A stretch of DNA of 21,068 bases from a virus. This document shows positions 170 to 21,068 of this stretch, in pieces. Under the pieces are notes generated by a model, which worked only from the letters and a program-made list of their open reading frames with translations, made no database searches and was not told the origin of the DNA. The stretch is from positions 1-21,068 of IMG/VR virus record IMGVR_UViG_3300030329_003494. One strand, written 5' to 3'. The translations under genes were made by a program, and so were the position numbers. The first letter of the stretch is position 1; every line of letters starts with the position of its first letter.

Positions 170-173
170 TCAG
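122..173. repeat. Three-copy T-rich direct repeat next to int
   Basis: TTCCATTTTTTG occurs exactly at 122-133 and again at 141-152. A looser third copy, TTCCCTTTTTCAG, lies at 161-173 and runs into the integrase stop codon. Copies start 19 and 20 nt apart, close to two helical turns, so they present the same DNA face. This suits binding sites for a DNA-bending or recombination accessory protein near an attachment site, but that role is inferred. The integrase shows no obvious separate arm-binding domain, which weakens the arm-site reading. Confidence 0.5.
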
Positions 174-1189
174 GTTCCGGTGTCTAATTCGAGGTCCAAG
201 TCATCGAAGCAGGACATAACTTCCTCGGTCTTGATGCCGGTAGACTCGATGTAGTCAACGATTGTCTGGATGGATTTGTGTTTGGTCACGGACTGAATGT
301 ATTCGGCTGTCCTGCCCTCAACGGCCAACGCTGTGATGACTCCACGTCTGAACGAGTGAGTGCCGTAACCCTTGGGGTCGTAGCCAGCCAGTTCGAGGTA
401 GGAACGGGTAAGAGACTGAAGGGCACGCTCTGTGAGTCGTCGGCCAAGGTTGCGGTTGTAAGTGTTCACAGCATGAAAGACTGGAACGCCTGCCGTGTTG
501 CCGTTGATGTGTGAAGCATCGAGCCAACGCCGGAGGGCCTTGGCAGGGTTGCCTAGGTTCTTGGTTGTGATCATCTTCTTCATGGCTGTGTTCTGTTGAG
601 CCTTCGATTTGGGCCAGGTCAAATGATAGCCGTAGAACTTGTTGTCTCTGACGATTGGCTCAACGTTGTCTCGGGTGAGTCCTGTCATTTCTGACACCCT
701 CGCGCCCGTGGACCATTGGACGGTCAGAATCGCCTCGTTCCTGATCGTGTAAAGGCTGTCTGGGCCGTGGTGGTTTCGTCCGGCTCTGATGAGTGCGGCG
801 AGGTCCTGCGGGAGGATTGGTTTCATTTTACGCTTTTTGTAGCCGTTTGACGCTGCCTCTCTGGCTGCTCCGTCGATGGCCTTTTTTACTTCTGGGTGGT
901 CGGTGGGCGGTAGACGGTCAGGGTGCAGGGCCTTGAGTCGTTTTTTGATGCCTGCAAGTCTCGCCCTGATCGTGGTCGGGGCGTAGCCCAGCTTGTTGCC
1001 GTTTGGTGCTTCGTCTTGCATCCAGCAAACGAATTCCAACACGTCGTCAGATGTTGGGTTTTCTGCGTCAATCCCCTCGACCACGCAGAATTGAACCCAA
1101 ATTTTCCAGGCTACGTCGTAAGAGTCCGTCGTGTTTTTCGCACACGACTTCCCCTTTAGCGCCTTGATGCGCTCGGAACGCTTACCCAT
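170..1189 (-). CDS. int: Tyrosine recombinase / phage integrase
   Basis: A 339-aa site-specific recombinase of the tyrosine family, which joins phage and host chromosomes by cutting and religating one strand at a time through a phosphotyrosine link. The N-terminal half (about residues 15-110) looks like the helical core-binding SAM-like domain. The catalytic domain follows, with Arg164 (TGARVSE), His278 and Arg281 (HSFRR), His304 (KHKS) and the nucleophile Tyr313 (DYIES), all in usual order and spacing. I see no distinct N-terminal arm-binding domain, so it may be a simple core-type integrase. The start is the ATG at 1189, with GGGAG about 9 nt upstream. It is last in a leftward series of small genes, 87 nt after its neighbour. 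All catalytic residues are present, so it should be active; it marks the element as temperate or a prophage. Confidence 0.95.
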   Translation of the reverse strand: MGKRSERIKALKGKSCAKNTTDSYDVAWKIWVQFCVVEGIDAENPTSDDVLEFVCWMQDEAPNGNKLGYAPTTIRARLAGIKKRLKALHPDRLPPTDHPEVKKAIDGAAREAASNGYKKRKMKPILPQDLAALIRAGRNHHGPDSLYTIRNEAILTVQWSTGARVSEMTGLTRDNVEPIVRDNKFYGYHLTWPKSKAQQNTAMKKMITTKNLGNPAKALRRWLDASHINGNTAGVPVFHAVNTYNRNLGRRLTERALQSLTRSYLELAGYDPKGYGTHSFRRGVITALAVEGRTAEYIQSVTKHKSIQTIVDYIESTGIKTEEVMSCFDDLDLELDTGT

Positions 1190-11812: not shown

Positions 11813-12130
11813 ATGCCAATCAATTACCTCCGATATCGCACAGACAACCCCGATATTGAGCAAGTGCAAGATAGCGTCGAGAAGAAGTTTGGCGAGCTTG
11901 ATGGGCTGGCAATTCTTAACGGCAAACTGCTTAAAGATGTCGAAATCACCAACAATGTTACGAACAAGATTTACCACGGACTGGGCCGACCATATCAAGG
12001 TTACATCGTCACGAAAATTGATGAGAAGGTCGTGGTCAAAGTCGTTACAGCAGACGATACAGACCCAGGCAAGTTCATCCCCCTATCGGTTGTCAGCTAC
12101 GACGCTGTAGCAGATTTGTGGGTATTCTGA
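11813..12130 (+). CDS. Small virion-associated protein of unknown function
   Basis: A 105-aa product, 3 nt after the adaptor gene, with GGAGG just upstream. The first 40 residues look helical (QVQDSVEKKFGEL), then a beta-rich part with AILNGKLLKDVEIT and NKIYHGLGRPYQGYIVTKI (52-70). The H-G-L-G-R-P-x-x-G-Y-I-V pattern recurs in small phage structural proteins near nozzle or fibre genes, where it forms a small jelly-roll or knob; the role here is not proved. The stop overlaps the next start (TGATG), so translation is probably coupled to the nozzle gene. Confidence 0.6.
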   Translation: MPINYLRYRTDNPDIEQVQDSVEKKFGELDGLAILNGKLLKDVEITNNVTNKIYHGLGRPYQGYIVTKIDEKVVVKVVTADDTDPGKFIPLSVVSYDAVADLWVF

Positions 12131-15100
12131 TGCCACTTACCAAAGAAGTAGTCAGTTTTCCATTCGCTGCCGGTCTTGATGAGAAGTCATCGGACAAAAC
12201 AACGCCACCAGGCAAGCTGGTCACAGCTGACAACGTTCGAATAGAGAAGACTGGTCAGATGATTAAGCGTGAGGCTTATGTGCGGCAGTCTCGGACAGGC
12301 AAAGCTCATAGCTCACTCATAAGCTCTGACATGACCAGCGGGACCTCAGCCATTCCTCACAAGGATGGTATGCTGCTTTTAGCCGACGAATACGCATACA
12401 AAAGAACAAGCACCGCAAACTCGACAACTCCCGGCGACTTGGTGGCGTTTGCGAATCATACGCCTTGCCACTTAACGCATGAGTTTGTTCGATCAGACAG
12501 ACGATGGAAGACAGGCAACGCTCACCATGTTCGCAATAACGGGTATGATGTATATACCTATGTTCGATATGCGCTAGATACCGATGAAACAGAATACCAC
12601 ACCATGCTTGAGGTGTATGATTCTGAAACCGGCGAGAGTCTCTACGCCGATACGATTGATACGGTAGTTGTGACGCAGGTTACTAACTCCATCCCACACG
12701 GTCTCTACTTTCACCCGCAGCCCCAGCTTTTGGCTCTTGGTGATTACGTGTTCATTTTCCTCGTGGATGACGCTAGGGCGGGCGGCACACCAACCCTGAA
12801 ATACTGCTCGATTAGAACGAGCACGGGAGTGGCTAGCTCAATCATTCCTACAAGCTTGGCCTCGATGGGTGTTTCGATCTACGCATCGCACCCAATTTAT
12901 TCAGTCGATAAAGCAAAGAACTACTTCACAACCAACACACTAAGCCAGTCTTCTGGGTGCGTACTACTGGCATATGTAGGTTCGAGTGATGTCATTAAGT
13001 TGCAATACTTTACGGTCAGCTCGGGCACCCTAACGGGCTCCGGGGTTACAGGTGCGACTCTCAGCTATGACGTAGTAAACACATCAGGAGTAGACAAGGA
13101 CCTATTTTTCTCAGAGGTTGAGACTTCAAGCCTTGGTGCAGCAATTGCTGATGAGAATCCGGTTGTCGCCGGGCTAAGTTTAAGCTGCCTTAACGATATC
13201 AATGGGGCTGATAGCGATCTTGTTAACGTGGTTTGTTACACGGCCTCTACGGCCTCCGGTGGCGGTGGGTCAGCCGTCCCGCAGGCCAGCTTTTTTGGGG
13301 CAAAGCTTTCAACTTCCCCAGAAACGATTAACCTTGGGACAGGCAAGTCTGACTATGTGATGGTTGCGGCTGGTGCTGCATCGCAGAGTGATGGTGGCTC
13401 GGTTCACATCTACTCAGAGCTTTCTCTAGAATCCACGGCCATCGACGCATCAACCAGTTCAGCGGCAGATCGGTACAGCGATCACGTAGTTGTTCTCTCG
13501 AAGCACACTCGTGGGGGCTCAACTAACTACTACGATATTGGGATTAATTGCAGCTTAACGAGCCACCCGTTCCGTCATGGAACAGCTACGTATGCAGTGC
13601 TCACTCATTACGCCTGTAATCAGTTTGTGCAGGGCGATGGTGCCAGTAGCAACATGTTCCTGGTAGATTCGAACTACTACCGGCTTCATGCAGCTGGTTC
13701 TATGGGAACAGCTCCGGTTGCATTTGCAGCAGAACACCACGCTCGTATCGCTCCAATTTATCGAAGAGTGGTCTACGGGGTGCAGCGAGTTCAAGGCGTA
13801 ACGACCGGCAAGTATATGTTCGGCTGCTCTAAGTTCGTCGGGTTTTCGGAATATATCCACGACACCAACGGCTTTCAGAATGAGGCGTCATTTGGCATTG
13901 CCAGCTGCACGGTTGACTTCAACCTAGACCGGCCAGTGCAGCACGTCGAAGCTGGCAAGGTAACACTGATGACAGGCGGCTGCCTGATGTCCTACGATGG
14001 CGAGCGCATTGTGGAGAATGGGTTTATAACCGCCCCGAAAATCGTAGAGTCGCGAGTTGTTAGTTCCGGGGGTGCTGTCATCAACGCAGCGCACAAATAT
14101 TGTGCAATTTGGGAGTGGGTTGATGCACAGGGGAACGTGCATCGTTCAAGCCCTTCCAACATTGAAACAGTCGAGCCTTCAAGTGGCACGACAAACATTG
14201 TCGAGATTGAAGTCCTAGAGCTGCCAATCACCAATAAGCGAACGGACTACCTAACCCAGGCATTTAAGAACGACGCTCGCTGTGTTCTCTACCGAACAAT
14301 GCCTACCGGCTCAGTGTTTTATCGGTACGCAGAAGCGGAGTGTGTGAAGACCGGCAAAACAATTCAGTTTGAAGATAAGGGCAATTTCTACTCAACGAGC
14401 GATGTGCTTCTTGAGGACAACGAGCAGCTGTACACTACAGCTGAATTGTCCAACGGATTTATCGGTAGCTGCACAGACATCGCAAAGCACAAGTCTCGCA
14501 TCTTCGCTCGAACAACTGAGAATATCGTCAATTGCTCCAAACCGCTCTTTGAGGGTGACGCTCCTGCATTTGTCACAGATCAACTTGCCTACAACATTAT
14601 CCTTGATGGCGAATCGAACCCCATCACATGCATCGAGTCGAATCTTGAGCATCTGCTAATTTTTACTGATGAGAACGGCTACATTTTAGCGGGTGATGGC
14701 CCTGACGCATTTGGAACTGGCGGTTTTTTAAAGCCCCGCAAGTTTGCCCCTGGCATTGGTGTGCTGGCCAATTCGCCTCACACAGTAACTCGTGACGGTG
14801 CATTTCTGGTCACCACGCGAGGTATCTATTTGGTGAAAGCGAACCTCAGCATCGAATACATTGGTGCAGCGGTTGAGGACATCATGGCGAGCCACGCCGG
14901 GATTGTTCTAAGTATCGATGTTCTGGATGGCACGAACGAGGTTCTAATTGCACTCAACAATAATGCGAGTGGCGGCAGTGATACCATCCTGCGCTACAAC
15001 TACGCTTACAAGCAGTGGACTCGTGACCTCGTTGGCTACGCTTCAACGAATAGCCAAGTGGACGCTTGCGTGTTGAGTGGCAACTATTACCGGCTAACTT

Positions 15101-15528
15101 CAGACGGCTACTTACATAAGCAGACGCCTGGCGGCTCTACATTCCAGGACTCAAGCACTGGCTCAAACGTTAGCTACAACATGGTTCTCAAAACTGGCTT
15201 CATCCCACGCGCTGGACTCCAGAAGTCCCAACGCATGTATCGGTGGATGTTGCTGGGCGACTACCTAAGTGACTTTACGCTAACGGTTAAGACTTTCACG
15301 GACTACAGCGGCAGCGCAGACACAACATTCACCAAGTCTGTCACAAGTAGCTTCGACAATCCTATGCAGTTCCGTGGGCACATCGACAAGCAAAAGAGCC
15401 AGGCCATAGCCGTAGAGATTACAGCGGCAGGAGCCGGCGCATGCGCCACTCTTGACAGCCTTGCTCTTGAAGTAGGCCGACGACCTTCGAAGACTTCAAT
15501 CAAACTTCCAGCAACGGAGACGCTCTAA
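12130..15528 (+). CDS. Tail nozzle / tail tubular B-like protein
   Basis: A 1132-aa protein. The start is the ATG of the TGATG overlap; a GTG at 12118 is less likely. The N-terminal part has PFAAGLDEKSSDKTTPPGKL and NVRIEKTGQMIKRE (about 10-50), the opening of podovirus nozzle proteins that begin with a GGL…G.L..A.N motif. The C-terminal part (residues about 800-910) has a beta-propeller-like block with ITCIESNLEHLLIFTD, GVLANSPHTVTRDGAFLV and GIYLVKANLSIEYIG, typical of the family. Protein is nearly all beta by look. At 1132 aa it is longer than T7 gp12 (794 aa), so it probably holds an inserted domain in the middle (roughly residues 100-550), rich in Ser, Thr, Ala and Gly. Six copies would make the tail tube. 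Confidence 0.8.
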   Translation: MPLTKEVVSFPFAAGLDEKSSDKTTPPGKLVTADNVRIEKTGQMIKREAYVRQSRTGKAHSSLISSDMTSGTSAIPHKDGMLLLADEYAYKRTSTANSTTPGDLVAFANHTPCHLTHEFVRSDRRWKTGNAHHVRNNGYDVYTYVRYALDTDETEYHTMLEVYDSETGESLYADTIDTVVVTQVTNSIPHGLYFHPQPQLLALGDYVFIFLVDDARAGGTPTLKYCSIRTSTGVASSIIPTSLASMGVSIYASHPIYSVDKAKNYFTTNTLSQSSGCVLLAYVGSSDVIKLQYFTVSSGTLTGSGVTGATLSYDVVNTSGVDKDLFFSEVETSSLGAAIADENPVVAGLSLSCLNDINGADSDLVNVVCYTASTASGGGGSAVPQASFFGAKLSTSPETINLGTGKSDYVMVAAGAASQSDGGSVHIYSELSLESTAIDASTSSAADRYSDHVVVLSKHTRGGSTNYYDIGINCSLTSHPFRHGTATYAVLTHYACNQFVQGDGASSNMFLVDSNYYRLHAAGSMGTAPVAFAAEHHARIAPIYRRVVYGVQRVQGVTTGKYMFGCSKFVGFSEYIHDTNGFQNEASFGIASCTVDFNLDRPVQHVEAGKVTLMTGGCLMSYDGERIVENGFITAPKIVESRVVSSGGAVINAAHKYCAIWEWVDAQGNVHRSSPSNIETVEPSSGTTNIVEIEVLELPITNKRTDYLTQAFKNDARCVLYRTMPTGSVFYRYAEAECVKTGKTIQFEDKGNFYSTSDVLLEDNEQLYTTAELSNGFIGSCTDIAKHKSRIFARTTENIVNCSKPLFEGDAPAFVTDQLAYNIILDGESNPITCIESNLEHLLIFTDENGYILAGDGPDAFGTGGFLKPRKFAPGIGVLANSPHTVTRDGAFLVTTRGIYLVKANLSIEYIGAAVEDIMASHAGIVLSIDVLDGTNEVLIALNNNASGGSDTILRYNYAYKQWTRDLVGYASTNSQVDACVLSGNYYRLTSDGYLHKQTPGGSTFQDSSTGSNVSYNMVLKTGFIPRAGLQKSQRMYRWMLLGDYLSDFTLTVKTFTDYSGSADTTFTKSVTSSFDNPMQFRGHIDKQKSQAIAVEITAAGAGACATLDSLALEVGRRPSKTSIKLPATETL

Positions 15529-16199
15529 TGGCTCGAACAATTAGCGCACGCCGACCAGTAGGGCCTGCTGGATACGGTGCAACAGCACAGCAGATTATGG
15601 ATGAGATGGCTCGCCGAAACCCCGGTGCATTCCTGGGAGACAGGCGAGCACAGGAAGCCATGGCTCTGCGGGTACTTCAGGGAATTGGTGAGCAGGAGCT
15701 AGCCAGGGATGTGGCCCACCAGGGCAGAGCAGCTCAGGCCATTATGGCCGCTAATCAGCAGGAGACTCGTCGAGCTATCGATCGAGAACGCTTGGAAGAT
15801 ATGAAGGCAGCGGCGGATGACTGGCGGCCAAAGGTTGCGCGAGTGGCTGGTGCAGTAGCTCCTGCGTTAGCGCTTGCAGGGATGGCGTATGAACAATATG
15901 CGGGACAAGACCCAGCGCCTGACCCAGAACAAAACGAACTGATTGACCCGATTCCATTTCGCCCAAGGCCAGAGGAAAGCATGGCTTTTGACGAGGGCCG
16001 TGTGGCTAGGGCGATGGAGAGCCTAACCCCTGAGCAGGTTCGCCTTGGTGAGCTAATGACGCCAAACGTTGCACGGGAAGACAAGCTTGAGGCCCGCCAA
16101 AAACTAAGGGCCGAAGACCAAGACCGCAGGAGAAGGTGGCTGCGTCTTATGTTGGAAGGTGCCCCAGCTAATCCTTACGTCGGAATGGAGGGGTACTAA
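15528..16199 (+). CDS. Putative small internal virion protein
   Basis: A 223-aa Ala/Arg-rich, helical protein. It holds a helix-rich N-terminal half with ATAQQIMDEMARRNPGAFLG and AMALRVLQGIGEQELARDV, then a hydrophobic Ala-rich segment at about 105-120 (VARVAGAVAPALALAGMAYE), then a proline-rich linker (DPAPDPEQNELIDPIPFRPR) and a highly charged end with REDKLEARQKLRAEDQDRRR. One hydrophobic helix in an otherwise polar protein, sitting right after the nozzle gene, fits T7 gp14-type internal proteins that form an envelope pore during DNA entry. No family is recognised. It starts at a TAATG overlap, with GGAGACG just upstream. Confidence 0.6.
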   Translation: MARTISARRPVGPAGYGATAQQIMDEMARRNPGAFLGDRRAQEAMALRVLQGIGEQELARDVAHQGRAAQAIMAANQQETRRAIDRERLEDMKAAADDWRPKVARVAGAVAPALALAGMAYEQYAGQDPAPDPEQNELIDPIPFRPRPEESMAFDEGRVARAMESLTPEQVRLGELMTPNVAREDKLEARQKLRAEDQDRRRRWLRLMLEGAPANPYVGMEGY

Positions 16200-17302
16200 T
16201 GCCTAGCTATTCAAACGAATCAGATGAAGCTCTCGCGGCATACGAAGATGCTGTATCGTCTGGAACAAGCACGCCGGGTTACTCCCAGCCTTCAAGGAAT
16301 ACTTCAAGAGGGCGTCAGGGTAATCCTCAAGGTAGTTCTACCTATGACCGAGCTGATAGTGTCACGGGTCAGGATATCGTCGATTACGCCCGCAGTCAGG
16401 GGCTAGATGTCAACAGCGTCGAAGATGTTCGAAAGGCTACGGGTGGATCATTCCAGCAATCATATATCGATGAAGTTGCCGAATGGAAAGGCCGCCGCGA
16501 TGCGGGGCTAGAAGGTGACCGAGCCCTAGCCATGGCTGAACAGCTTAAGGCACGGGCAGAAGGTACAGCAGGCCCCTCGTTCGCAGAGCAGGAGCTACAG
16601 AAGCGAATTGGTACAGCAGCTCGTGGTCAAGTTGGCGCGGCGCAGCGAGTCGGTGGGCGCTTCGCGGCAGGTGCAGCTAGAGCCGGGACACAAGCATCTG
16701 ACAGACTCAGGGCAGCCGGTGACACAGCCGTCACTGCTCTGCGGCAAATGGAGCAGCAGCAAGCTCAGCAGCAATACGACCAGTTCATGCTGTCAGCAGA
16801 GCAGGGTGCAGCTAACGCTGCCCTCGCCAGAGAACAGATGGAGTTTCAACGCCAGCAAGCTGAAGACGCTGGAAATGATGCGTTGTGGTCTGGGATTCTA
16901 GGGGCACTGGGCGCCATCGGTGGCGGATTTTTGGGAATGGCCGGAGGGCCTGCGGGAATTATTGCAGGAGCTGGAGCTGGCTACCAAGTTGGCGCAGGCA
17001 CTGGCAGCGCAATTTCTGACGAACGCCTCAAGACAAACGTCAACCCACACGAAGGCATGGAAGGCGCTTACCAGTTCCTCGATGCCTTGGATGGCGCACG
17101 CTACGACCTCCCAGCTACACGAGAGCAGGGCAGCTATGGCGTCATGGCACAGTCTGCTGAACGCACACCCATGGGCCGCAGCTTCGTAGAGCAGACCCCG
17201 CAAGGTGTCCGCACGCTGAACCCAGGCAAAGGTTTCAACGCACTGCTACTCGCACAGAAGAGTTTGCACGAACGACTAAAACGATTGGAAGGGGGTGAGT
17301 GA
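16199..17302 (+). CDS. Internal virion protein with C-terminal S74 self-cleaving chaperone domain
   Basis: A 367-aa protein. Residues 1-60 are Ser/Gly/Arg-rich and disordered. Residues 110-225 are Ala/Gln-rich and helical, with QMEQQQAQQQYDQF. Residues 229-270 form a Gly/Ala glycine-zipper-like hydrophobic stretch, likely membrane-active. The C-terminal 95 residues match the peptidase S74 intramolecular chaperone: SDERLKTNV (273-281), GVMAQSAERTP (314-324) and a closing coil ALLLAQKSLHERLKRLE. In endosialidase the dyad is Ser then Lys five residues later; here Ser273 and Lys278 have that spacing. Cleavage should remove about 94 residues. The domain is best known on tail fibres and spikes; here it sits among internal-type proteins, so it may be a tail-tip or ejection protein. 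GGAGGGG gives the ribosome site. Confidence 0.75.
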   Translation: MPSYSNESDEALAAYEDAVSSGTSTPGYSQPSRNTSRGRQGNPQGSSTYDRADSVTGQDIVDYARSQGLDVNSVEDVRKATGGSFQQSYIDEVAEWKGRRDAGLEGDRALAMAEQLKARAEGTAGPSFAEQELQKRIGTAARGQVGAAQRVGGRFAAGAARAGTQASDRLRAAGDTAVTALRQMEQQQAQQQYDQFMLSAEQGAANAALAREQMEFQRQQAEDAGNDALWSGILGALGAIGGGFLGMAGGPAGIIAGAGAGYQVGAGTGSAISDERLKTNVNPHEGMEGAYQFLDALDGARYDLPATREQGSYGVMAQSAERTPMGRSFVEQTPQGVRTLNPGKGFNALLLAQKSLHERLKRLEGGE

Positions 17303-18834
17303 TGGATGAAGAAGATGCGCTATTAGCTTTTCTGGAGAGGGCAATTAACGAAGACGAGCAGCCGCAGGTGGCTCCTCCCACGGCAGTGCAGCAGCCGGTT
17401 CAGCCCGCGCCACAGAAAAAGCCTAGCCGAAACATCGCTTTTGTTGGTGGCACTACCCCACAACAGAAGGCTGAGGCTGATGTGCAGCCTGAAATTGTCG
17501 AGCCAGAGCCTGAATATCAAGCCCTTGCGCGGGAGCTTTATGAGGACGCTAGCCGAATGCCTGGCCGATTGGCAGCTCAACGGGCAAGTGCAGCAGAGCA
17601 GTACGCTACAGGCGTAGAGGCACAGCGTGGGATGGCACAACAGCGCATGGATGCCCTTGATGCCCACGGCCAGCAAATTCAGCAGATTTGGGATGAGGCG
17701 ACCACCCAAAGGCGCAAGCTACAGCGGGCCCAGAACATTGAGCGTACGCTTCGGGAACGAGCGAGGCAAAAAGCCCGTGCTGATGTCGCTGATGTGAACG
17801 ACCGTATTACCAACTTCAAGGTGGACCCTAACGGTGCGTTCCCAACGCTTGGCGGTAAGATTATGGCTGCTATTTCGATAGCGGTAGGTGCGTTTGCGCA
17901 GGGGCTTAGTAAGGGTCAAATCCCTAACACCGCTCTTCGGATTATCACCGATGCAGCCAACCGCGACATTGAAGCGCAAAAGGTACAACTCTCAAGTCTT
18001 CGAACTTCTGCACAAAACCAAAATAACCTTTACTCCCAGCTCCTCACAGAACACGCCAACGAGGAGCGTGCTGAACTTCTGGCAATGAATGGAGCGCTAA
18101 CGTTTGCCAAGTCTCGCATCCAGCAGGCTATGAACGTGTTTGCAGGTGAGAAGTCTAAGGCAGCCTTGCAGCAGTTGATGGGCGCTCTCGATAACAAGTC
18201 CTCCGAGTTGACCTTGCAGAATATCCAGAACCGCGCCACCGATGAGCGTGCAGCACTCAGTTCAAGAGCGCAGGCTATTGGGCTGATGAGGCCAAAGGGA
18301 ACGGCGGCGGGGAGCGGAAACAGAGCCAAGGAGTCTATTAAAGAGGTTATCAATGGGCTTCAAGAGCTTGCCACATTGTCAGAGGAGATTGAGGGTCAAA
18401 GTGGCTTTCTGTCAGAAGCGCAGCGAATAGGGTCTGGTGTCGCTCTTTGGGCTGGTATGGATAAAGCCGCCCAGCAGATTGGCAGTGAAAAGCACCAGGA
18501 ATTCAACACGCGAGTAACGGGTGCGGCACAAAAGCTCATGAAAGCCTATCAAGGTTCAAAGCCTTCAGATCGAGATTGGGCTGTTTTCATCGGCATGTTT
18601 CCAATTCTTTGGCAAACAGGCGCCACTCGCAAAAATCAGATAACGGCGCTTACCAATACCCTGCTAGCTGCAACCGATGGCGGCAAAAGGAAGATGCGAC
18701 CGGGTGACCTTTGGCGCAGCTACAAGGCAAACCCCGATCTTCATCAGGGTGCAATCCGCATCAACGAAAAGACTATGATTGAAGACGCGCAAAACTTCAC
18801 AGGAGCCTTCGGCCTCCCTAGTGCAGATAGGTAA
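17302..18834 (+). CDS. Large internal / ejection virion protein
   Basis: A 510-aa protein starting at the ATG of a TGATG overlap; the GTG at 17299 is one codon earlier. GGGGG lies 6 nt upstream. The first 75 residues are acidic and Pro/Gln-rich. A long coiled-coil-like region follows (about 75-165, rich in Ala, Gln, Arg). Then GGKIMAAISIAVGAFAQGL (184-202) is a hydrophobic Gly/Ala helix, followed by a second helical region with NTALRIITDAANRDIEAQK (209-227). The hydrophobic G-K-I-x-A-x-x-x-x-x-G-A-F pattern with R-D-I-x-A-Q is one I associate with internal structural proteins of temperate podoviruses. Long helices with one membrane-prone helix fit a T7 gp15-like role in the ejection pore; no enzyme motif is seen. 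Confidence 0.65.
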   Translation: MDEEDALLAFLERAINEDEQPQVAPPTAVQQPVQPAPQKKPSRNIAFVGGTTPQQKAEADVQPEIVEPEPEYQALARELYEDASRMPGRLAAQRASAAEQYATGVEAQRGMAQQRMDALDAHGQQIQQIWDEATTQRRKLQRAQNIERTLRERARQKARADVADVNDRITNFKVDPNGAFPTLGGKIMAAISIAVGAFAQGLSKGQIPNTALRIITDAANRDIEAQKVQLSSLRTSAQNQNNLYSQLLTEHANEERAELLAMNGALTFAKSRIQQAMNVFAGEKSKAALQQLMGALDNKSSELTLQNIQNRATDERAALSSRAQAIGLMRPKGTAAGSGNRAKESIKEVINGLQELATLSEEIEGQSGFLSEAQRIGSGVALWAGMDKAAQQIGSEKHQEFNTRVTGAAQKLMKAYQGSKPSDRDWAVFIGMFPILWQTGATRKNQITALTNTLLAATDGGKRKMRPGDLWRSYKANPDLHQGAIRINEKTMIEDAQNFTGAFGLPSADR

Positions 18835-18840
18835 TCCACG

Positions 18841-21068
18841 ATGCCCATGATGTTCAGTACAGAGTTGGATGATTACCGCTTCGTTCCAGATGACGAGGTA
18901 GATGCCCGACTACGCACAGGACAATGGGGCTTTGATGGAGACACCAACGTTCACGTTCAGCTTGGCGATGGCACTTACACCCAGCGCCCTGCATCAGAGC
19001 TTGGGGCTGTGTATAGCAACGGTGGCGCTTACGACCCTGTATCTGCTCGTGTGGCCCGAAACGAAAAGAAGGAATGGGAAGGTAAGGGGGCTTTAGCGGC
19101 AACGGCGGGTGTATTTCGTGGCCTAACGTTTGGCTTAAGTGATGCTGGTCTAGCTGCATTGCCAGGAATTGACGAGGAAGACCTTCGAAATCTTGAGGAG
19201 TACAACAAAGCCGAAAGCATGACCGGCGAGCTAGCCGGGATGATTGTGCCTGCCTTTTTTACTGGTGGTGCTTCCGCAGCAGTGTCGGGTTCGAGTATCG
19301 CAGCGCGTGCTGCATTGGCTAGCGGCAAAGCAATGCGGGGTGTGGCTAAGTATACCCCGGCAGGTGTGACCGCAAAGGTTGGTCAGAAGGTCACTGGTAG
19401 GGTGATGGGTGCCATACCTGAAGGCGCGAGCCTAACCCAAAAAGCAATGCGTACAGGCGCGGCGCTAGGTGTTGGTGGTGGCGTTGAGGCTGGAATCTAC
19501 GGCGGGCATCAGTTCGTCGGTGACATGCTCGTCGATGAAGAGGCGTTGGGCCGCCCAGAGACTACAGCCGATGAGCTTCTCTCCACGGTCGGCTACGGGA
19601 TTGGTGGCGGTGCTGTACTGGGGGCAGGTGCGCCAGCTCTTGCTAAGGGCTTCCAGAAGATAGGTGAGACAGTAACTGATAACTTCGTCACTCAAACCTT
19701 GGGTAAAGGTTGGGACTGGTTAACCACCAAGCTCCATGACATGGACTATGATGCGTGGAGAAAAGCTCAAACTGATGACGATTATCTTTTCTTTGCTACT
19801 AGTGGGAAAAAGCGCAGTGAGCTTGAGGATGCCGTTGTAAATCAAACGGCTGACGTTACTGATAACATTCTAGATACGTTTGAAGACTTAAACGCTGCCG
19901 CATATGGGCCTGAGAAGCGTCGTAAGTTAGCTGAAATCGTAGAGCCGGAAAATGGTGAAGTTGCTGCTTCCACTGCTATCGACTTGCTTCGGAATATTAA
20001 GAACGCCTCTACTGAGCTTACGAAGAAAGGCCGTGCCCAAGAGTACGACCTTCCTGGCATCAATGAGATTAAAGACGCCTCAACTCACTACCTCGCGAAA
20101 CTGAAAGAGCGCATTGGTAAGCGTGGGGAGCAAATTGACCAAGCAGAGGTTGCAATGGAAGGCTTTATGCCAACTAGTGCAGTTGATGCAGTCCTTGAGC
20201 CAGCCCCCCTAAAGGACCCTGATAAGTTAGCCGCTGATGTCTTCATCATGATGGATGAGTTTAAGAAGCACCTTGGTGGGCGATGGGCAAAGTATTCAAG
20301 AAAGAGTTTTGAAACCTTAACGCCAGCGCAGCGCAACTCAAGCAATGAGGCGGGCGGCACCTATGCAACGGTTGCTGAGTTCCTTCAGGACCCTAAGATG
20401 TGGGGCAAGCCTGCTGCTGATCTACAACGCGAAGTAAATACTGCATTCAGCAGAGTTCAAAACGCTTTCCAGCATCCCCAAGGTTTCCGTTCGCGCTTCA
20501 CGGTTCCCGTGGCGGCAGAGTCTGGCGCAAAGAAGCAGGTGGCTTCTAGCAAGTCCAAGCTAAAGACATTTGTTCGAGGCTTTGGTGAAACAAGAAACGC
20601 CGACAGAGAGCGCATCTTTAACGAGTTCACCGACCGCTTCAGGGCTTACGTTAACAGCGTTGAGAAACACTATGGTGTTGCTGGCAAACGAGGCCAGGAT
20701 GTTGTTCGCCAGATTGATGAGGCCCATAAGTCCTGGGCCGACTACGGCGCAAAGATGGACGTGTTCAACGATATCAAGCACGTCGTACAGAACAAATCAG
20801 AATTCTATATGTCTGACTTGGCCGTGGGTGGAGCAACGGCAATCTATAACCCTGTAGCACTTCCGCTCGCCGTTGCAGCCAAGTCTATGATGGCTCCCGG
20901 CACTGTGCTTAGAAAGCAGGCAGCGGTCGCACGCATTAAGGCTAGTGTGAATGGCCGGCTACACGAGGCTGTTGACCGGGTAGCTGAAGGTATGCGGACA
21001 GGCACGACCGGGAACTGGGAGATGGGTCTTGCTACAGGTGGGCGTCGAATCTTCGCACTCACTGCCCA
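18841..21068 (+). CDS. Very large internal / ejection protein, cut by the window edge
   Basis: The frame is open from the ATG at 18841 to the edge (742 codons so far). AGG lies 9 nt upstream; ATGs at 18847 and 18850 are in frame. A small domain (about residues 12-62) has VPDDEVDARLRTGQW and VHVQLGDGTYTQRPASELG, a pattern I recall from large internal proteins of delta-proteobacterial phages. Residues about 84-108 and 128-160 are Gly/Ala-rich hydrophobic stretches (FRGLTFGLSDAGLAALPG; ELAGMIVPAFFTGGASAAVS), and two more lie near 203-225 and 246-266. The rest is helical and charged, with another hydrophobic patch (YNPVALPLAVAAKSMMAPG, about 680). No lysozyme or transglycosylase motif is seen so far. 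Size and place resemble T7 gp16, the long ejection-channel protein; the rest lies outside the window. Confidence 0.75.
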   Translation, partial: MPMMFSTELDDYRFVPDDEVDARLRTGQWGFDGDTNVHVQLGDGTYTQRPASELGAVYSNGGAYDPVSARVARNEKKEWEGKGALAATAGVFRGLTFGLSDAGLAALPGIDEEDLRNLEEYNKAESMTGELAGMIVPAFFTGGASAAVSGSSIAARAALASGKAMRGVAKYTPAGVTAKVGQKVTGRVMGAIPEGASLTQKAMRTGAALGVGGGVEAGIYGGHQFVGDMLVDEEALGRPETTADELLSTVGYGIGGGAVLGAGAPALAKGFQKIGETVTDNFVTQTLGKGWDWLTTKLHDMDYDAWRKAQTDDDYLFFATSGKKRSELEDAVVNQTADVTDNILDTFEDLNAAAYGPEKRRKLAEIVEPENGEVAASTAIDLLRNIKNASTELTKKGRAQEYDLPGINEIKDASTHYLAKLKERIGKRGEQIDQAEVAMEGFMPTSAVDAVLEPAPLKDPDKLAADVFIMMDEFKKHLGGRWAKYSRKSFETLTPAQRNSSNEAGGTYATVAEFLQDPKMWGKPAADLQREVNTAFSRVQNAFQHPQGFRSRFTVPVAAESGAKKQVASSKSKLKTFVRGFGETRNADRERIFNEFTDRFRAYVNSVEKHYGVAGKRGQDVVRQIDEAHKSWADYGAKMDVFNDIKHVVQNKSEFYMSDLAVGGATAIYNPVALPLAVAAKSMMAPGTVLRKQAAVARIKASVNGRLHEAVDRVAEGMRTGTTGNWEMGLATGGRRIFALTA

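Follow-up and report, generated by a model that had tools for sequence, protein, structure and literature searches.

A Peptidase_S74 Domain with an Invariant Ser/Lys Dyad on a Probable Ejection Protein of a Marine Short-tailed Phage

Introduction

Little is understood of the way in which ejection proteins that carry membrane-seeking parts are produced, held in solution, admitted to the head in the right number and matured. Peptidase_S74 (S74) domains are classically found on fibres and spikes (PMC8326128), and according to one review they serve other low-complexity proteins as well as fibres and spikes (PMC7824862). The DNA analysed here (the window) is a complete IMG/VR record of 21,068 bases, likely a genome fragment, from a marine short-tailed phage, and it encodes a 367-aa protein that ends in an S74 domain and lies among genes of putative ejection proteins. 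This locus raises the question of whether the protein is a tail fibre or an ejection protein, and of what a self-cleaving chaperone domain would do on the latter.

Results

Genomic Position of the S74 Gene

The gene plan of the window is of the short-tailed phage type and runs from a TerL-like gene through portal, capsid and adaptor genes and a 105-aa protein to a 1136-aa nozzle-like protein, after which come a 223-aa protein, the 367-aa S74 protein, a 511-aa protein and a large protein cut by the record end. The portal matches the Pfam families SU10_portal and P22_portal, the capsid protein SU10_MCP and the adaptor SU10_adaptor. The genes of interest are as follows.

12118..15528, + strand: nozzle / tail tube B-like protein, following the SU10_adaptor protein and conserved in relatives
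15528..16199, + strand: 223-aa upstream neighbour, putative ejection-block protein (from gene order only)
16199..17302, + strand: S74-bearing ejection-slot protein, 367 aa (open reading frame, Pfam)
17299..18834, + strand: 511-aa downstream neighbour, putative ejection protein, of a family that directly follows the S74 slot in many relatives
18841..21068, + strand: large putative ejection protein, truncated by the record end (relatives, 915-1560 aa)

The original prediction placed the S74 gene in an internal/ejection block, and the gene order bears this out, with a nozzle-like gene on one side and putative ejection genes on the other. The ejection proteins of podophages are encoded between the nozzle/tail tube and the large internal proteins and upstream of the fibre genes, and the 367-aa gene occupies this very position. 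Relatives were gathered through the capsid protein (77 loci), and their order is nozzle, a variable protein, the S74 slot, the 511-aa family, the large protein and a 110-aa protein, followed in those examined further by a fibre-like gene. No fibre gene was recognisable in the window, past whose end such genes would fall. Three related records (G028, G018 and G011) carry two S74 ORFs, one in the ejection slot and one downstream, and the downstream ORF of G028, the one scanned, matches tail fibre families (E 7e-25).

Comparison of the neighbours of the S74 gene with P22 gp20/gp16 and SU10 gp23/gp24 detected no homology, including no link of the 511-aa protein to P22 gp20 or SU10 gp23, and the large protein had no Pfam or PHROG match below 0.01. 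No relatives of the capsid protein were found in bacterial genomes. A tyrosine recombinase is encoded at 170-1189 (- strand; Phage_integrase, E 4e-11), and the phage may thus be temperate.

Other features of the region vary among the relatives. The small gene before the nozzle (window 11813-12130; L042:12218-13045; L057:12684-13403) encodes about 100 to 300 aa, and in the relatives its product mostly finishes in WVF or VF; it may be a tail needle or a short fibre whose C-terminal anchor is conserved. In L064 a classical S74 tail fibre (L064:4778-6859) occupies the slot before the nozzle, and the ejection-slot protein is without S74. A gene for a VanY-type D-Ala-D-Ala carboxypeptidase (L005:13448-13792, E 4e-11) lies directly 3' of the 511-aa family gene in L005. 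In a disjoint-group comparison the group of the window showed links of 97% and 95% with two further marine groups, a weak one (74%) with a freshwater group, and none with the L016/L005 group.

Architecture of the 367-aa Protein

The protein consists of a helical body, an uncharged hydrophobic segment and the S74 domain, with the following elements.

16337..16894, + strand: helical body, residues 47-232, with a long helix predicted at 156-232 (AF2 model)
16883..17014, + strand: uncharged Gly/Ala-rich hydrophobic segment, residues 229-272, the predicted C-terminus after cleavage (sequence; pLDDT <50 over 234-284)
17015..17299, + strand: Peptidase_S74 / intramolecular chaperone domain, residues 273-367 (Pfam, fold matches)
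17015..17017, + strand: Ser273, predicted nucleophile with the predicted cut just N-terminal to it, invariant in 26/26 domains and equivalent to endosialidase NF S911 and MyRF S587
17030..17032, + strand: Lys278, predicted dyad partner, invariant in 26/26 domains and equivalent to endosialidase NF K916 and MyRF K592
17138..17152, + strand: GVMAQ, residues 314-318, with an invariant Gly (alignment)
17222..17290, + strand: C-terminal helix, residues 342-364 (about), counterpart of the trimerising alpha4 (AF2 model; role of alpha4 from PMC8326128)

The motifs read originally from the sequence were found in place, SDERLK at residues 273-278 (with the Ser273 codon at 17015 and the Lys278 codon at 17030) and GVMAQ at 314-318, and the C-terminal coil proposed at the same time appears in the model as the helix at about 342-364. 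According to the AF2 model, residues 47-232 are helical with good confidence (pLDDT mostly 75-95 over a block at 51-220) and strands are confined to the S74 domain, whereas neither the beta-structured trimeric shaft nor the receptor-binding part that would mark a fibre or spike is seen in the predicted structure. The dyad region was modelled with low confidence. Matches of the full model to helical proteins were treated as generic.

To place the body of the protein, two ejection proteins established by experiment serve as references, P22 gp7, which is present in about 12 copies and has its N-terminus trimmed by a host protease (PMC4992974), and gp22 of SU10, one of the ejection proteins gp20-24 (PMC9509320). 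The 367-aa protein had no PHROG match, its profile comparison with P22 gp7-type proteins gave a probability of 0.4%, and no homology of its body to SU10 gp22 was detected, so that the ejection role is argued from position and analogy. The P22 gp7 family (phrog_598) shares with the window protein its place in the gene order and a Gly/Ala-rich hydrophobic C-terminus, although P22 gp7 is without S74 and is trimmed N-terminally, whereas the trimming predicted here is C-terminal. SU10 gp22 is similar in position and size and also has a C-terminal Gly/Ala tail, but it lacks S74, the only S74 domain of SU10 being on gp13. Position and architecture together argue that the 367-aa protein is very probably of the ejection type rather than a fibre.

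The C-terminal Domain and Its Ser/Lys Dyad

As the original prediction of an S74 domain had anticipated, PF13884 matched residues 273-321 (23.0 bits versus a cut-off of 22). Because this margin is thin, the domain was tested further through its homologues, a profile and its fold. The PF13884 match was found in 12/12 homologous S74 regions scanned from related contigs, and a profile of 12 S74 regions matched, weakly, the solved chains of the GA-1 neck appendage, MyRF and a long tail fibre subunit. When the model of the domain (pLDDT mostly 70-82) was ranked by fold, 3gw6 and 7dc3 (both Z 7.0), 4uw8 (6.4) and 3gud (6.3) came ahead of a fifth entry at 3.4, and these top four are exactly the four solved S74/ICA structures. 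It is therefore nearly certain that the C-terminal domain has the true Peptidase_S74/ICA fold.

Ser273 and Lys278 show the Ser-x4-Lys spacing of the dyads of endosialidase NF (S911/K916) and MyRF (S587/K592) (PMC8326128). Across an alignment of 26 S74 domains of this gene slot, 13 from the family of the window and 13 from phage records, the only fully invariant residues are this Ser, an Asp, the Lys at +5 and one Gly, while most other columns vary; the domains, several of which are close pairs, had been gathered by similarity or gene position and not by the motif. In the window's family the Ser is followed by 89-102 residues that take in the C-terminal helix (with the exception of L005, which has 197), and in the phage-record set mostly by 62-76, without this helix. 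In MyRF, cleavage depends on trimers formed by the C-terminal helix (PMC8326128). S74 is also the best conserved region between the window and its closest relative, L105 (81% identity, dN/dS about 0.08, with dS nearly saturated), the hydrophobic tail giving 57% identity and a dN/dS of 0.22.

The domain thus resembles the autocleaving S74/ICA domains of endosialidase NF, the T5 L-shaped fibre pb1, the GA-1 neck appendage and MyRF in Pfam family, fold, Ser-x4-Lys dyad and C-terminal helix. In contrast to these, which are preceded by a triple beta-helix, it comes after a helical body and an uncharged stretch of Gly/Ala, and it sits on a probable ejection protein. Self-cleavage at Ser273 is predicted as likely.

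The Gly/Ala Tail and the Predicted Mature End

The glycine-zipper-like stretch described originally is present, residues 229-272 being Gly/Ala-rich with 0 charged residues and 8 GxxxG overlaps. The uncharged run of 46 residues was equalled in 1/5000 shuffles of the protein, and in each of the 13 S74-bearing proteins of the window's family the 17 consecutive residues of highest hydrophobicity are found within the 45 residues that precede the Ser. The hydropathy of the tail (maximum 1.63) is borderline for a transmembrane helix.

A cut before Ser273 would remove 95 residues (10.5 kDa), rather than the approximately 94 first proposed, and the proposal that the mature protein would then end in the hydrophobic Gly/Ala segment finds support in proteins that are without S74. 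Relative L008 ends in ..GVVLGASVMGGAGKATGRTFG (ATGRTFG, stop), at about the point of the predicted cut, and its next gene starts 15 bases on. Relative L039 ends in ..GFSAGSASGMSVGSAI (SVGSAI, stop), its last residue being the one that precedes the would-be Ser, and there the next gene starts 2 bases on. P22 gp7 (..STPWGAAIGGGIGLLGSLF) and SU10 gp22 (..GSSFGPWGALAGGVIGGLAST) likewise end in Gly/Ala tails, so that the predicted cleavage would give the 367-aa protein the same kind of end. In the S74-less relatives such a tail is exposed from the outset, and masking is therefore not generally needed; that the predicted trimming unmasks a membrane-inserting tail is a doubtful idea. S74 in the slot switches between present and absent 6-7 times along a tree built from 22 nozzle proteins of related genomes, which indicates that trimming is not required in all relatives.

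The Same Slot in Named Phages

Direct tblastn against phage records with the window protein and the relatives L057, L033 and L024 gave no matches, and it was relative L078 as a query that led to cultured relatives, with Rhizobium phage RHph_N2 as the best lead. The S74 protein of RHph_N2 belongs to phrog_6121, which has relatives in Sulfitobacter, Myxococcus, Microcystis and other phages. In Sulfitobacter phage phiGT1, gene 17 is annotated as Peptidase_S74 and is flanked by a gp14-like protein on one side and two injection proteins on the other; the phiGT1 paper treats the internal virion proteins IVPA, IVPB and IVPD and does not mention S74 (PMC10386132). The proteins of phrog_6121 and phrog_4287 (phiGT1 gene 17, RHph_N2, Ochrobactrum phage OH and Myxococcus phage Mx8 p54) resemble the window protein in having a C-terminal S74 domain with the dyad and in preceding injection proteins, and phrog_4287 is labelled DNA ejection protein; they differ from it in their short S74 domains (62-76 aa after the Ser versus 89-102) and in their bodies, which show no detectable homology to that of the window protein. 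In the cultured Pseudomonas phage PAE2, which has a P22-type coat protein, PAE2_13 is homologous to P22 gp7 (its residues 3-228 match phrog_598, E 5.7e-30; P22 gp7 itself, 6.5e-95) and shares with the window protein the gene-order place, the Gly/Ala-rich C-terminus and a C-terminal S74 domain, but without the C-terminal helix. S74 in the ejection slot thus recurs in unrelated podophages of Rhizobium, Sulfitobacter and Pseudomonas.

Two further proteins show other arrangements. The assembled metagenomic phage ct7L0027 (L121:5173-8727, MW202675) encodes a single 1185-aa chain with a similar ejection-like N-terminal part, an S74 domain in mid-chain (277-327) and an SLT lytic transglycosylase domain (601-694). 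The chain looks like a polyprotein, which self-cleavage by S74 would split. Roseobacter phage CRP-235 encodes an 844-aa protein with a C-terminal S74 domain (L129:2682-5213), and its genome has three S74 matches in total.

Public annotation therefore already contains the S74-on-ejection-type architecture (phiGT1 gene 17, Rhizobium phages, phrog_4287), which is not new at that level; no paper describing or testing S74 on ejection proteins was found in the open-licence literature.

Discussion

We propose, as the reading that is on balance probable, that the 367-aa protein is the precursor of a small ejection protein that trimerises through S74 and loses its last 95 residues by self-cleavage before Ser273. 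The precursor, at the position of P22 gp7 and SU10 gp22, would comprise the helical body, the Gly/Ala hydrophobic tail and the C-terminal S74 domain. Three S74 domains may trimerise through the C-terminal helix and keep three ejection proteins in register, after which the Ser273/Lys278 dyad would cut between Ile272 and Ser273 and release the 10.5-kDa domain. A 28-kDa product ending in the uncharged tail would be packaged in the head close to the portal, for later ejection. In the most speculative step, the tail would enter a membrane, S74 having kept it soluble until then.

A different reading makes the protein a plain tail fibre, a spike or some other part of the outer tail, equipped with the usual S74 chaperone. 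It draws on the classical occurrence of the domain and on the name tail fibre protein borne by several PHROGs matched through it. This reading is very improbable, however, since the body is predicted to be all-helical and not beta, the gene has nozzle-like and ejection-type genes on its two sides, the P22 gp7 homologue PAE2_13 bears S74, and G028, G018 and G011 have a second, downstream S74 ORF, in G028 with matches to fibre families. Granted an ejection protein, S74 might instead be a mobile fibre module that landed on the slot gene and is gained and lost without much effect, as its scattered presence would allow; the strong constraint on the domain between the window and L105, the invariance of the dyad across very divergent members and the same placement in unrelated podophages make such near-neutrality improbable.

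The repeated absence of S74 from the slot also fits a domain that folds and trimerises but stays uncut, or is cut incidentally, and so stays on the ejection protein to support its trimerisation or solubility. In agreement with this, the cultured gp7-type relatives have only the short stretch after the Ser and lack the helix that drives trimerisation and cleavage in MyRF. We consider this unlikely, because Ser and Lys are invariant in an alignment that otherwise mostly varies, the C-terminal helix is kept in the window's family, and the S74-less relatives stop where cleavage would end the protein.

The proposed self-removal of S74 from an ejection protein may have wider bearing. That one class of podophage ejection proteins is generally matured in this way, with the domain assembling the trimer, keeping the tail harmless during synthesis and freeing it at packaging to enter the host envelope on ejection, is for now a tentative suggestion that we hold to be less probable than the proposal for the window protein itself. 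The automatic label 'tail fibre' on S74 proteins can mislead. If our proposal is correct, a self-removing trimeric chaperone would explain a step in the maturation of ejection proteins, and the range of S74 would be extended from fibres to the ejection apparatus.
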